A stretch of 64,000 nucleotides of DNA from Kofleriaceae bacterium (GTDB lineage: Bacteria; Myxococcota_A; Polyangia; Haliangiales; Haliangiaceae): positions 1 to 64,000 of the forward strand of contig JAGPCY010000047.1 in assembly GCA_018057825.1 (NCBI GenBank), read 5' to 3'. The notes beneath the pieces were generated by a model. The model was not told the DNA's origin and ran no database searches. It saw only the letters and a program-made list of their open reading frames with translations. Positions 19,559 through 61,353 of this stretch are shown piece by piece; the first letter of the stretch is position 1, and each line of letters opens with the position of its first letter. The position numbers and the translations under genes are program-made.

Positions 19559-19832
19559 GGTGAGGAGACGGAGGCGGAGACCGAGACCGCGACGGAGGCC
19601 GAGACCGAGACCGAGGCCGAGACGGAGACCGAGGCCGAGACCGAGACGGAGGCCGAGACCGAGACCGCGACGGAGGCCGAGGCCGAGGCCGAGGCCGAGG
19701 CCGAGACCGAGGCGGAGACCGAGACCGAGACGGAGGCCGAGACCGAGACCGAGTCCGAGACCGAGGCGGAGACCGAGGCCGAGGCGGAGGCGGAGACCGA
19801 GACCGAGGCGGAGGGTGAGACGGAGGTCGAGG
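19559..19832. repeat. Hexanucleotide tract 2 (GAGACC/GAGGCC/GAGACG)
   Basis: About 270 bp of tandem hexamers beginning 18 bases after the M1-like peptidase stop. Variants GAGACC, GAGGCC, GAGGCG and GAGACG are intermixed in higher-order blocks. Read in the plus strand it gives Glu-Thr/Glu-Ala runs, but no start, signal peptide or neighbouring domain supports a protein. Confidence 0.92.
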
Positions 19833-20021: not shown

Positions 20022-21011
20022 ATGCGTGCTTCGTCTACGTTCGTGACCCTGCTGGCCGCCGCTGCGCTGGCCTCCTCCGTCGCCGCTTGCAAGAACGTGC
20101 CGGGCATCGGCGGTCGGAGCAAGGTCGACCCCAATAGCTGCGGCAACTACGCCGTGTCCGACGCCGGCCGCAAGCTCAAGGGCTTCCTCGAGGCCACCGT
20201 GACCCTCGAGACCGAGGCCGCCCGGGTCGAGGCCGTGGTCAAGGAGAGCTGCTCGATCATGGGGCGCGAGCTGCAGATGCCGGCCGGCGATCTCCAGGGC
20301 TCGACCGACGCGGTCTGCACCAAGGTGATCGACTACCTGAAGGGCTCGCTCCAGGCCAACTTCAAGGCCGACGCCAAGCTCGACATCAAGTACACGCCCG
20401 CCGTCTGCACCGTCAACGCCGACGTCGCCGCCCGCGCCGCCGCGCAGTGCGAGGCCAAGGCCGAGGCCGACGTCTCGGTCACCTGCAACGGCACCTGCAA
20501 CGGCACCTGCGACGGCACCTGCAAGGGCACCGCCGGCACCGGCGGCTCGAGCGGCAACTGCAACGGCGTGTGCGAGGGGCGTTGCTCGGGCGGCTGCGAC
20601 GGCTCGGCCGACGTCAACGCGTCGGCGCAGTGCAAGGCCGAGGCGGAGGTCAAGGCCTCGGTCGACGTCCAGTGCACCGAGCCGGAGCTGACCGTCGCCG
20701 CCGACGCCAGCGTCATGGTCGACACCGCCCGCGCCGAGGCCACGCTGAACGCGATCCGCACCGGCATGCCGAAGATGCTCTCGGTCAAGGCGCGCCTGCG
20801 CCCCCTCGAGGCCGCCACCAAGGCGTGGGCCCAGAGCGCCCGCGAGCTCGGCGCCGCCTCGGGTGACCTCGCCCAGTCGTTCAAGGACCAGGCGCTGTGC
20901 ATCAGCGGCCAGATCTCGGCGGCGGTCTCGGCGATCACCAAGATCGAGGCCTCGATCTCGGTCTCGGTCTCGGTCTCGGCGAGCGCCTCGGGCTCGGTCG
21001 GTACCAATTAG
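20022..21011 (+). CDS. Lipoprotein with CNGTC cysteine-knot repeats, unknown function
   Basis: A 329-residue lipoprotein: signal peptide with lipobox SSVAAC (Cys24), an alpha-helical region rich in Ala/Glu (about 50-135), then at about 162-200 a compact Cys-rich insert with spacing C-x3-C repeated (CNGTCNGTCDGTC, then CNGVCEGRCSGGC). Helical Ala/Lys/Val segments follow, and the C-terminus is Ser/Val/Ala alternation ([15 protein letters not shown]) encoded by GGTCTC-type hexamers. The C-x3-C repeats could be disulfide-linked or bind metal. The family is not one I can name. The start is fixed by AGGAG six bases upstream. Confidence 0.8.
   Translation: MRASSTFVTLLAAAALASSVAACKNVPGIGGRSKVDPNSCGNYAVSDAGRKLKGFLEATVTLETEAARVEAVVKESCSIMGRELQMPAGDLQGSTDAVCTKVIDYLKGSLQANFKADAKLDIKYTPAVCTVNADVAARAAAQCEAKAEADVSVTCNGTCNGTCDGTCKGTAGTGGSSGNCNGVCEGRCSGGCDGSADVNASAQCKAEAEVKASVDVQCTEPELTVAADASVMVDTARAEATLNAIRTGMPKMLSVKARLRPLEAATKAWAQSARELGAASGDLAQSFKDQALCISGQISAAVSAITKIEASISVSVSVSASASGSVGTN
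20944..21002 (+). repeat. Hexanucleotide tract inside a coding sequence
   Basis: CTCGGT/CTCGGC hexamers, the complement of the GAGACC/GAGGCC tracts elsewhere, form the last part of the CNGTC lipoprotein gene and encode its Ser-Val/Ser-Ala tail. The tract ends nine bases before the stop. Confidence 0.8.
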
Positions 21012-21021
21012 CCATTCTTGA

Positions 21022-21039
21022 GGGTTTGTCACCAAACCC
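21022..21039 (+). terminator. Hairpin 1 of array A, terminator-like
   Basis: GGGTTTG-TCAC-CAAACCC begins 10 bases after the stop codon at 21011. It is a strong short stem without a following T-run, so termination or message-end protection is inferred from position. Confidence 0.5.
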
Positions 21040-21496
21040 TCCCCCGACGGGGTCATGCCCCCGTCGGGGCCCCCACCCGAGACGCGCCCCTCCGGGGCGC
21101 CGGGTGCTTCAGCGTAGGTGGGTGGTGACCTCGAACGGCTTTGTCACCAAACCTCCCCTCGCTGGGGCGTAGCCCCAGCGAGCCTCCCCTCCGAGACGCC
21201 TCCCTCTGGTCGGCTGGCGCGCCTCGGGCGCGCCAGGTGGTGCAGCGCGGGTGGGTGGTGACCTCGGACGGGTTTGTCACCAAACCTCCCCTCGCTGGGG
21301 CGTAGCCCCAGCGAGCCTCCGGTGCCTTCTGGGAGGTTTGTCACCAAACCCTCCCCCGTCGGGGTCATGCCCCCGTCGGGGCCCCCACCCGAGACGCGCC
21401 CCTCCGGGGCGCCGGGTGCTGCAGCGTAGGTAGGTGGTGACCTCGTGCGACCTCCCGTCCGAGACGCCTCCCTCAGGTCGGCGGGGAGAGGTCGGG
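21022..21496 (+). repeat. Composite hairpin array A (four units)
   Basis: Fills the gap between two convergent genes. Units begin at about 21022, 21137, 21270 and 21335 with the same GGTTTGTCACCAAACC hairpin (G-to-C change in the second). Hairpin 2 is of two kinds: GACGGGG-TCAT-GCCCCCGTC in units 1 and 4, CGCTGGGG-CGTA-GCCCCAGCG in units 2 and 3. Hairpin 3 is GCGCCCC-TCC-GGGGCGC in 1 and 4 but CTGGCGCGCC-TCG-GGCGCGCCAG in 2; unit 3 is truncated. Units close with TGCAGCG (TTCAGCG in unit 1) and GGTGGTGACCTCG. Array B and C units share this plan. Confidence 0.88.
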
Positions 21497-21500
21497 TGAA

Positions 21501-22724: not shown

Positions 22725-22868
22725 TCTCCCTCTCAGTCTCCCTCTCAGCCTCCCTCTCAGCCTTCAGCCCCTGCCCCGCTCCCAGCCTCCCTCTCGGCCT
22801 CGGTCTCGGTCTCGGCCTCGGTCTCGGCCTCGGTCTCGGTCTCGGTCTCGGCCTCGGTCTCCTCCCCG
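22725..22868. repeat. Hexanucleotide tract 3 and a preceding 12-bp repeat
   Basis: A 12-bp repeat (CTCCCTCTCAGC type, about 22725-22765) passes into GGTCTC/GGCCTC hexamers (about 22790-22862), the complement of tracts 1, 2 and 4. The 22629-22880 stretch is C/T-rich and must contain the promoter of the minus-strand lipoprotein gene, but I cannot place one. Confidence 0.85.
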
Positions 22869-22879
22869 CGGGATTCCAA

Positions 22880-23412
22880 CACCAACCCGCGCTGCACCTC
22901 CCAGCGCCCCGGCGGGGCGCGTCCCGGGGGGAGGCTCGGCGGGGACCTGGCCCCGCCGAGGGGGGCTCGGTGACGAGCCCCCTGAAACACCGCGAGGCTC
23001 GGCGGGGACCTGGCCCCGCCGAGGGGGGCTCGGTGACGAGCCCCCTGAAACACAGCGATCCCACCACCAACCCGCGCTGCACCTCCCAGCGCCCCGGCGG
23101 GGCGCGTCCCGGGGGGAGGCTCGGCGGGGACCTGGCCCCGCCGAGGGGGGCTCGGTGACGAGCCCCCTGAAACACAGCGATCCCACCACCAACCCGCGCT
23201 GCACCTCCCGGCGCCCCGGCGGGGCGCGTCCCGGGGGGGAGGCTCGGCGGGGACCTGGCCCCGCCGAGGGGGGCTCGGTGACGAGCCCCCTGAAACTCAG
23301 CGATCCCACCACCAACCCGCGCTGCACCTCCCAGCGCCCCGGCGGGGCGCGTCCCGGGGGGAGGCTCGGCGGGGACCTGGCCCCGCCGAGGGGGGCTCGG
23401 TGACGAGCCCCC
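22880..23412 (-). repeat. Composite hairpin array B (five units)
   Basis: Reads on the minus strand from next to the DUF481 gene stop. Five copies of hairpin 1 (GGGGGCTCG-TCAC-CGAGCCCCC) lie at 22961-22982, 23024-23045, 23146-23167, 23269-23290 and 23391-23412, each followed by hairpin 2 (CTCGGCGGGG-CCAGGT-CCCCGCCGAG). All but the copy at 23024 continue to hairpin 3 (GCGCCCC-GCC-GGGGCGC) and the tail TGCAGCGCGGG. The period is 122-123 bases except for one shortened 63-base unit. The copies are almost identical, pointing to recent tandem amplification. Confidence 0.92.
23391..23412 (-). terminator. Hairpin 1 of array B nearest the gene, terminator-like
   Basis: A 9-bp GC stem with TCAC loop, 6 bases beyond the stop codon of the DUF481 gene. 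Position suggests a role at the message 3' end. Confidence 0.5.
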
Positions 23413-23418
23413 TGAAAC

Positions 23419-24315
23419 TCAGAACAGCGTGACGATCAGCGACGCCTTCGTGGTCGTGTCGAGCTTGAGCGTCTCGGGCGGATCGTTGGCGTCGAGCATC
23501 TTGCCGGCGAAGGACAGCGGCGCCGGGACGTTGTCGAACTTGGCGGTCAGGCCGAACGAGAACGAGATCGACTTGGTCAGCTTGGTCGACAGGCCGAGGG
23601 CGACGGTGGCGCGCAGGTCCTTGAACGGGCCGACGTCGTCGCTCTGCTCGTTGACGTTGGCCAGGGTCTCGACCGCCCCGTCGACGCTGGTGGCCTCCGA
23701 CAGCTTGCCCTTGTAGCCCACGAAGGCCCGGGCCGAGTGGATCGCCAGCGAGTCGGTGCCCTCGGCGGCGTAGTCCTCGTAGCTGAAGTCGTAGCCGAAC
23801 TCGCCGGTGACCTCGTGCTTCTCGGTCTTGTAGAGCAGGCGCGCGTAGCCGAGCTGACCGCCACCGGCGAAGTCCTTGCCGGCGACCACGTCGGCGCCGC
23901 CGAGCGCCGCCACGAACAGCGAGTTGAACTCGGTGAGGAAGCGATCGTAGCGGAGCTTGACCAGGTAGTTCTGGGCCGCGGTGGTCGACTCGCGCTCGAC
24001 CTCGTCGGCGGACACGATGTCGTCCGTCGACGTCACCTTCAGCACCGACGACCGCGCGAAGGTCCCGGCGGCGTCGATCGAGAACTTGTTGGCCTTCTCC
24101 TTGCGCGAGGCCTTGAGGCCACCGGTGATGGTGGTGGTGCGACCGTTGCCGGTGGTGAAGACCAGGCCGGCCTCGGCGGTCGCGGCCCACTCGACCTTCT
24201 CGACGTCCTTGACCTCGTCGGCCTTGCCGAACTCGAACTTGGGGGCCGGTTGCGCGGTGGCGGCGGCGGCCGAGGCGACGATGAACAACGCGGCGGAGGT
24301 GGCGGTGAGCTTCAT
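23419..24315 (-). CDS. DUF481-like outer-membrane beta-barrel protein
   Basis: A 298-residue exported protein with a signal peptide ending TAQPAP (about 22). The mature part shows the DUF481 features: an early WAATAEAGLVFTTGNGRTTT strand pair with the TGN motif, regular alternating strands such as RYDRFLTEFNSLFVAALGG and FGYDFSYEDYA, and a terminal aromatic (LIVTLF). DUF481 proteins are salt- or stress-associated outer-membrane barrels of unknown function. The ATG at 24315 is chosen because it begins the signal peptide. Repeat array B starts 6 bases past its stop. Confidence 0.83.
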   Translation of the reverse strand: MKLTATSAALFIVASAAAATAQPAPKFEFGKADEVKDVEKVEWAATAEAGLVFTTGNGRTTTITGGLKASRKEKANKFSIDAAGTFARSSVLKVTSTDDIVSADEVERESTTAAQNYLVKLRYDRFLTEFNSLFVAALGGADVVAGKDFAGGGQLGYARLLYKTEKHEVTGEFGYDFSYEDYAAEGTDSLAIHSARAFVGYKGKLSEATSVDGAVETLANVNEQSDDVGPFKDLRATVALGLSTKLTKSISFSFGLTAKFDNVPAPLSFAGKMLDANDPPETLKLDTTTKASLIVTLF

Positions 24316-24431
24316 GGCGGACTCCTTGCCCTCGGGGGGCCGTACGCCGCGCAAGCTACGCCGAAACCACCGGGCGCGGGGGGCGCGTCACGGGGAGACC
24401 CGAGGTAGGGATCGGGTACGCCGCTTGGACC

Positions 24432-53157: not shown

Positions 53158-53376
53158 GTGAGCAAAGAAGAACTAGTCCATCTCGAGGGCGAGGTCATCC
53201 TGATCGCCAAGGGCGGCAACTTCCGGGTCAAGCTCGACACGGGTCACGAGGTGCTGGCCAAGCTGGCCGGCAAGGTCCGCCGCCACCGCATCCGCGTCGT
53301 CCTCGGCGACCGCGTCACCGTCGCCGTGTCGCCGTACGATCCAACGCGCGGGTTCATCGTCTACCGGCAGCGCTAG
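53158..53376 (+). CDS. infA: Translation initiation factor IF-1
   Basis: A 72-residue OB-fold protein, matching IF-1 in length and motifs: EELVHLEGEVI, FRVKLDTGHEVLAKLAGKVRRHRIRV, GDRVTVAVSPYD and RGFIVYRQR. IF-1 binds the ribosomal A site during initiation. The start is GTG with AGAGGA four bases upstream (53148-53153). The gene stands alone rather than in a ribosomal protein operon (no secY, map or rpmJ neighbour), so it may be a relocated or second copy. Substitutions such as VRRHRIRVV in place of the usual KNYIRIL are moderate. Repeat array C begins 11 bases after its stop. Confidence 0.93.
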   Translation: MSKEELVHLEGEVILIAKGGNFRVKLDTGHEVLAKLAGKVRRHRIRVVLGDRVTVAVSPYDPTRGFIVYRQR

Positions 53377-53386
53377 TTCTTCTCTT

Positions 53387-53409
53387 GAGGGCTTTTCGAA
53401 AAAGCCCTC
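53387..53409 (+). terminator. Hairpin 1 of array C downstream of infA
   Basis: GAGGGCTTTT-CG-AAAAAGCCCTC begins 11 bases after the infA stop. Strong stem followed by C-rich sequence, so a factor-independent terminator or message 3' end is likely, though there is no T-run. Confidence 0.6.
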
Positions 53410-53770
53410 CCCCCAGCATTCGCTGGGGCCCCCCTCCCATAACGTCCGGATCGCGGGGGCATCGCCGTCCGTGTCACCGACGGTGCTGGCGCGTGAGCGC
53501 CGGCGTTCAGCCGCTGTCTGCTGCAGCGCGGTCATGCGTGACCACCGGCGAAACTGCTTGAGGTTTTCTCGAAAAAACCCTCCCCCCAGCATTCGCTGGG
53601 GCCCCCCTCCCATAACGTCCGGATCGCGGGAACGCCGCCGTCCGTGTCACCGACGGTGCTGGCGCGTGGGCGCCGGCGTTCAGCCGCTGTCTGCTGCAGC
53701 GCGGTCGTGCGTGACCACCGGCGAGACTGCTTGAGGGCTTTTCGCAAAAGCCCTCCCCCCAGCATTCGCA

Positions 53771-53947
53771 AGAGCAGTGAACGGTTTGAATGCCGTCGCG
53801 AGACGCGGACGTGTGAGGCAGATCCGGGCGCACGCCCGAAGCGCAGGGAGGAGTGTAGTCAGCTACACGACGAGCGAGCATCGGACGTACGGCCGGAGGT
53901 GCCCACACGGCCGCGTCGCAGCAGGCATTCAAGCCGTTCGCTGCTCT
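53771..53947. mobile_element. MITE-like 177-bp imperfect palindromic element
   Basis: The ends are 24-base inverted repeats (53771-53794 against 53924-53947) that differ at two positions, both T opposite G and so still able to pair as G.U in RNA. Inner arms also align (ACGCGGACGTGTG on the left against ACGCGGCCGTGTG from the right) up to a central near-palindrome GTGTAGTCAGCTACAC (53854-53869). It interrupts hairpin 2 of the third array C unit. It has no coding capacity, and no clear target-site duplication was seen. Confidence 0.75.
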
Positions 53948-54181
53948 ACGGCCCCCCTCCCATAACGTCCGGATCGCGGGGGCGCCGTTGGTGATCTCGC
54001 CGGTGGACGTGGTGCGTGAGCGCCGGCGTTCAGCCGCTGTCTGCTGCAGCGCGGTCGTGCGTGACCACCGGCGAGACCCTCCCCAAACGTCCGGATCGCG
54101 GGAGCGCCGTTGGTGATCTCGCCGGTGGGCGTGGTGCGTGAGTGTCGGCGTTCAGCCGCTGTCTGCTGCAGCGCGGTCGTG

Positions 54182-54324
<143 letters not shown>

Positions 54325-61260: not shown

Positions 61261-61353
61261 TCGGCCTCGGCCTCGGTCTCCGCCTCGGTCTCGGTCTCCG
61301 TCTCGGCCTCGGCCTCGGCCTCGGTCTCGGTCTCGGTCTCGGTCTCGGCCTCG
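61261..61353. repeat. Hexanucleotide tract 5 (GGCCTC/GGTCTC)
   Basis: Complementary orientation to tracts 1, 2 and 4. It starts right at the end of the GST gene (no gap) and runs into the half copy of the palindromic element. Confidence 0.92.

Follow-up and report, generated by a model that had tools for sequence, protein, structure and literature searches.

Mycobacterial MIRUs are dispersed, tandem and sense-oriented repeats tied to stop codons; they are not known to be hairpin composites, and are linked to translational coupling and insertion at DTGA sites. Integron attC sites are structured, sequence-variable sites that lie right behind stop codons. REPs form the GTAG and CGTC superfamilies, the CGTC REPs having no known transposase (Di Nocera 2013, PMC3733652), and E. 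coli REPs near stops are reported to stall ribosomes (work cited in PMC12306157). Gupta and Pal (2021, PMC8355165) propose clustered hairpins close behind stops as intrinsic terminators. How GC-rich bacteria without U-tract terminators set their transcript ends is poorly understood.

The elements found in the window (the whole 64,000-nucleotide stretch of DNA analysed here, from the 8.9 Mb genome of a myxobacterium, G000) are like REPs, BIMEs and REPINs in being short, high-copy extragenic palindromes that lie mostly downstream of genes in species-specific families, and their stems of 8-11 bp with small loops are also REP-like. Unlike REPs, they comprise two or three different hairpins in a fixed order, nearly always in gene sense and at a fixed spacing of a few nucleotides, also behind tRNAs; they form no head-to-head dimers, lack a GTAG tag, and have a GACG, which reads CGTC in the complementary strand, some 12 nt away from the palindrome and not constant across the class. 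Identity with the CGTC-tagged REPs was rejected, as GACG is parted from hairpin 2 by a C-rich segment and is replaced in two related genomes (G178 and G154). The elements resemble MIRUs in being dispersed, tandem, sense-oriented and stop-linked. With attC sites they share a structured, sequence-variable make-up and a place right behind stops, but they are spread over housekeeping genes and tRNAs with no cassette array. One nearby tyrosine recombinase has a score of 66.8, the cut-off for an integron integrase (IntI) being 265 bits, and an attC identity is not supported. Like intrinsic terminators, the I- and V-shaped ones included, they are GC-rich hairpins right behind the gene and in its sense, often two adjacent, and a stable GC hairpin was indeed found in that position. 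They differ from terminators in the C-rich segment behind the hairpins, in having any T-tract before hairpin 1 (as in G000) and in lacking a U-tract behind the hairpins, which was seen in 3 of 31 cases in G000 and 0 of 42 in the congener G003 ('Myxococcales bacterium isolate new MAG-81', JAEUJY01); on this last ground a canonical intrinsic terminator was rejected. The elements may represent a new class of stop-adjacent repeats without a known mobiliser, and their structural job at transcript ends seems not to have been described before. From the sequence evidence, we would give an even chance to the proposal that the arrays belong to a family of composite modules for transcript 3' ends that spans the class.

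Architecture of the arrays

The initial annotation had described three arrays, each beginning shortly after a stop codon and reading in the direction of that gene. All three stand in those places and in gene sense (Table 1). The covariance model R1 scores the units of arrays A and B at 1e-7 to 1e-15 and gives weak matches in array C, with E=6e-4 for its first unit and E=0.05 for its second. Array C is tied to the family of the other two by copies in G003 with the hairpin 2 CCCGGCATTCGCCGGGG, and all three arrays are of a single family. The folds of array A (z -4.2) and array C (z -3.5) were each more stable than 200 of 200 shuffles, and Rfam 15 gave no match above the gathering score at the arrays or anywhere in the window. 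A MITE-like insertion interrupts unit 3 of array C in the loop of its hairpin 2; a sequence similar to this insertion comes after the array in L042. Hexamer arrays, (CCGAGA/CTCGGT)n, occupy gene gaps at 27-174, 19565-19807, 22792-22861, 54182-54324 and 61261-61353 of the window, and such tracts directly abut many element arrays across G000.

Table 1. Arrays, hairpins and host genes, in coordinates of the window
Feature	Position	Strand	Basis or remark
Array A	21015..21497	+	R1 matches; hairpin 1 lies 8 nt past TAG 21009-21011
Array A, full core units	21015-21084, 21327-21396	+	R1 matches
Array A, partial units and remnant	partial: 21130-21198, 21266-21320	+	R1 matches
Array A, hairpin 1, GAGGGTTTG-TCAC-CAAACCCTC	21020..21041	+	Sequence, RNA fold
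Array A, hairpin 2, CCCCGACGGGG...CCCCGTCGGGG	21042..21069	+	Sequence, fold
Array A, C-rich G-free segment, ending in GAGACG	21070..21084	+	Sequence; conserved in alignment A1
Array A, hairpin 3, GCGCCCCTCCGGGGCGC	21084..21100	+	Sequence, fold
Array A, host gene, no Pfam match	20043..21011	+	Start could be 19875 or 20043
Array B, five core units	22920..23417	-	R1 matches; unit 1 lies 6 nt past TGA 23421-23419
Array B, hairpin 1, GGGGGCTCG-TCAC-CGAGCCCCC	23391..23412	-	Sequence
Array B, hairpin 2	23365..23390	-	Sequence
Array B, hairpin 3, GCGCCCCGCCGGGGCGC	23334..23350	-	Sequence
Array B, host gene, DUF481	23419..24354	-	Pfam
Array C	53382..54180	+	Units at 53382, 53555 and 53730 (interrupted); degenerate copies to ~54180
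Array C, hairpin 1, GAGGGCTTTT-CGA-AAAAGCCCTC	53387..53409	+	10 nt past TAG 53374-53376; sequence, fold
Array C, hairpin 2, CCCCAGC-ATTC-GCTGGGG	53411..53428	+	Sequence, fold
Array C, C-rich segment, CCCCCCTCCCATAACG	53429..53444	+	Sequence
Array C, host gene, translation initiation factor IF-1 (infA)	53158..53376	+	Pfam PF01176, E=7e-19
MITE-like insertion, 177 bp, 24-bp terminal inverted repeats	53771..53947	.	Sequence

In an alignment of 63 units from G000 and G003 (A1), the constant core of about 70 nt consists of hairpin 1, hairpin 2, the C-rich segment and GACG. Hairpin 1 has a stem of 9-11 bp and mostly a TCAC or TCGC tetraloop, hairpin 2 begins 0-2 nt behind it, and next come some 10 nt rich in C and nearly devoid of G, then the almost invariant GACG. 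Of the unit order first described (hairpins 1, 2 and 3, then a CAGCG tail), hairpins 1 and 2 proved constant, but hairpin 3 and the CAGCG-containing tail, present in many G000 units and different in G003, are variable or missing in many units. The sequence TGCAGCGCGG, reported as common to all three arrays, is not diagnostic as a genome-wide family mark, as it occurs 105 times and its reversed control 269 times.

Two-sided changes were found in 15 of the 20 stem pairs of A1, with 93.7% of cells paired, and its covariation score was 0.383 against 0.145 in shuffles (0 of 500 reached the observed value), with no slid control above 0.17; in a larger G003 set (A3), 18 of 20 pairs had two-sided changes, with 317 two-sided cells against 91 when shuffled (0 of 500), the counts of both alignments being inflated by shared ancestry. 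Covariation thus lies far above both column shuffles and slid controls. Near-identical G003 copies vary solely in the 4 bp beside the loop and always as Watson-Crick pairs (TTTG/CAAA, TCTG/CAGA, TGTG/CACA, TTTC/GAAA, TCTC/GAGA, TCTT/AAGA), which implies several independent double changes. G-U pairs make up about 1% of stem pairs, which is unusual, and fewer than expected, if selection worked on RNA alone; this would allow for a constraint on the DNA itself, or for palindrome repair by template switching. Past the stop, local structure forms strong blocks at +0 and +30 with a weakly structured gap at +40, and these blocks are missing at gene ends without an element, which show little structure. 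For that reason the element was rejected as a general 3' end of all genes; it is carried by a minority of genes only.

Placement behind genes

The R1 search found at least 140 units in G000, in about 48 arrays or single sites among the matches listed, and at least 146 in G003; these lower bounds make the elements high-copy extragenic palindromes in the sense used for REPs. Gene calls came from a simple codon-usage caller, and the genomes are mostly drafts, G384 and G368 consisting of two contigs each. Among the matches listed, 42 of 48 arrays in G000 and 55 of 68 elements in G003 begin within 20 nt past a sense stop, so that the covariance model recovered the non-random placement predicted in the initial annotation. 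One of the other six G000 arrays lies at the end of an integrated island; of the remaining five, one is at an island end and two are near contig ends. In G003, again among the matches listed, the upstream gene is co-oriented in 62 of 66 cases (p = 2e-14), and 51 of 60 elements stand within 12 nt of the gene against 9.8 expected from uniform placement in the same gaps. The modal gap from stop to element is 4-6 nt in G003, where a convergent downstream neighbour is no more frequent at element genes than at other genes.

Several elements without a near sense stop instead follow tRNA genes or missed ORFs. In G003 they stand behind tRNA-Gly (L065, 4 nt), tRNA-Asn (L092, 5 nt), tRNA-Gln (L094, 5 nt) and tRNA-Cys (L125, 2 nt), and in G178 directly behind tRNA-Met and tRNA-Ala, giving six tRNA genes in all with an element 2-8 nt behind. 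Translation is therefore not required, and what the sites share is that a transcribed gene ends there. A gap to the stop of 0-11 nt would suit a translation-linked role, in which a hairpin at under 16 nt from the stop codon would hold up the ribosome at termination and tune expression. This is reported for E. coli REPs lying up to 15 nt from a stop, which likewise place a hairpin in the footprint of that ribosome (work cited in PMC12306157). The elements differ from those REPs in being composite, in belonging to another phylum and in standing also behind tRNAs, and since the six tRNA genes are untranslated such a role is highly improbable.

Stop usage at the G003 elements is that of the background (TGA at 42 of 55 against 146 of 192), so the stop normally belongs to the host gene; the bipA homologues of congeners without an element stop at the same residue. 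A stop codon supplied by the element is thus not supported in G003, and insertion at DTGA, as in MIRUs, is disfavoured by the stop usage together with the tRNA sites. In another genome, G368, all six copies that directly adjoin a called gene end have TAG there (TAGTCCCGAGG), and the family there may carry its own stop codon.

Across 379 genomes sampled from the phylum, ten had R1 matches at E<=1e-5. Among the congeners G001-G006 the family occurs in number in G003 alone, with one match each in G006 and G005. The observation that stems differ while the plan stays, made first on the three arrays, extends to other genera of the class, where the same plan recurs with different stem sequences. In G384 the layout is TGA-GCTTGC-GGGAGGGGTCTTGGAAGACCCCTCCC (hairpin 1), CCGACCGGCAAAGCCGGATCGG (hairpin 2), CCCCCCACCCC and then hairpin 3, which is common to about 40 places; all 30 that were examined are sense-oriented, and hairpin 1 lies 4-8 nt past the stop in most. 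G178 has about 100 matches, single and tandem, with 15 of the 32 listed copies within 25 nt past a sense stop, and G368 has about 40 copies, many of them coming after another repeat, with weaker placement (9 of 26 within 25 nt past a called sense stop). Selection on structure at gene 3' ends, as originally suggested, is well supported by the placement, the covariation and the plan recurring with different stems; gene-end structure has been retained while the sequence turned over.

Gain, loss and possible spread

Orthologous gene ends are occupied in both G000 and G003 at bipA, at the L023/L113 gene and at the L047/L129 gene, and in one species only at L057/L072, L054/L043, L063/L034 and L043/L053, where there is a gene end at the corresponding place. 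The occupied and empty orthologous sites indicate that elements are gained or lost at fixed positions, and copies multiply in tandem. The idea of a mobile module, also raised at the outset, agrees with these sites, but no mobiliser was found.

The elements could be selfish, non-autonomous palindromic DNA (REP-, MITE- or MIRU-like) copied as single-stranded hairpins, for which gene 3' ends are either the sites of insertion or the only places of survival, any effect in RNA being a by-product. The occupied and empty sites, with the C-terminus unchanged, would be expected of such DNA, as would the near-identical subfamilies within genomes, the tandem arrays, the presence in number in two of seven congeners, the Watson-Crick-only stems and a flanking duplication at one copy (L070 ~1990-2140), which stands before tmk with about 33 bp from the 5' region of that gene duplicated around it, perhaps a vestige of the copy's arrival. 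However, PF01797 (Y1/RAYT transposase) had no match in G000, G384 or G368, the controls being positive, and mobilisation as a RAYT-dependent REP was rejected for this reason; no target-site duplication was seen at ordinary copies, and the fixed spacing of 4-10 nt in gene sense, at tRNA genes too, is unlike random insertion. We regard selfish DNA as a possible, though rather unlikely, account of the family. PF01797 matched 17 times in G003 and twice in G178, the Y1-type family of G003 being an IS200-like transposase with 17 copies at 17 places.

Hairpin 1 of the arrays also appears to be an attachment site for genomic islands (L040:1785-2936; junctions in L032, L040, L016, L029 and L035, with a variant in L041). 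The island junctions GTCACC|GTATCTTCG and CGAAGGTAT|GTCACC have a common 6-bp crossover. The islands have conserved ends of about 120 bp and, in several, interiors of 58-64% GC, and a 383-aa tyrosine recombinase adjoins one island junction.

A candidate role at transcript 3' ends

In this myxobacterial lineage dozens to hundreds of genes, tRNA genes included, end in a composite hairpin module, and the local fold together with the tRNA sites points to the transcript 3' end and not to translation. We propose that in RNA hairpins 1 and 2 would block 3'-to-5' exonucleases, so that the 3' end would be set, and shielded, close behind the gene. Release of RNA polymerase would come at the hairpins or slightly downstream and would be due to the clustered hairpins alone or to Rho, with the C-rich stretch as its target; each additional tandem copy would be one more barrier. 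An exonuclease barrier with hairpin- or Rho-driven release is probably the most conservative mechanism. A module of transcript 3' ends is backed by sense placement in several independent sequence families, the tRNA sites, covariation and local structure, and also by the sites occupied in both species. It is weakened by the missing U-tract, the minority of genes concerned, the lack of the element in most congeners, the absence of convergent enrichment, the scarcity of G-U pairs and the weaker placement in G368. With hundreds of copies in several unrelated families, occupied and empty sites, and both mRNA and tRNA hosts, the elements form a natural set.

Polymerase might also stop unaided at hairpin 1 or 2, the elements then being intrinsic terminators that lack a U-tract, of the I/V-shaped or clustered-hairpin kind. 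An rC:dG hybrid is the most stable; the C-rich segment behind the hairpins is the opposite of a U-tract, and U-tracts are absent. Placement at tRNA ends speaks for such terminators, as does the presence of two adjacent hairpins within 80 nt past the stop, the commonest cluster that Gupta and Pal propose as terminators (PMC8355165). On balance we judge unaided termination improbable.

The C-rich segment, which the proposed 3'-end module would offer to Rho, is broken by T, A or G at the position matching the purine arm of hairpin 1, and the number of C past the break equals the number of G past the A of the 5' arm (GGGGAGG/CCCCTCC, GGGAAGG/CCCTTCC, GGGAGGGG/CCACCCC). This parallel register holds in 135 of 164 units and in 40 of 56 distinct combinations (permuted mean 28.7, maximum 37 in 2000 permutations), whereas the antiparallel register with the same arm is at chance (2000 permutations), and antiparallel pairing with that arm was rejected accordingly; a second parser agrees (parallel 3/5000, antiparallel 1164/5000). 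A cruder overall match score exceeded permutation in both orientations in G000 and G003, the orientations not being separable by it, and gave nothing in the small G384 set. Pairing of the segment with GGAGG/GGGTG behind hairpin 3, seen in some G000 units, was not significant (97/1000 permutations). Since a parallel (mirror) register across families is what a third strand or H-DNA would need, the segment might act as a third strand, in a triple helix of the pyrimidine type or in an H-DNA mirror repeat, with hairpin 2 as the connecting loop. However, consecutive C+.G-C triples are unfavourable at neutral pH, and in place of T there is often an A or a G, which makes a triple helix very improbable here. 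If true, the element would give the gene end a triple-helical cap, the bacterial equivalent of the triple helices that protect eukaryotic RNA 3' ends.

The loop of hairpin 1 is TCGA in six G003 units (L097, L055, L107, L115, L118 and L120). In this genome the fourth loop base covaries with the base before ACG (TCGC...GACG; TCGA...TACG), perhaps through a loop contact.
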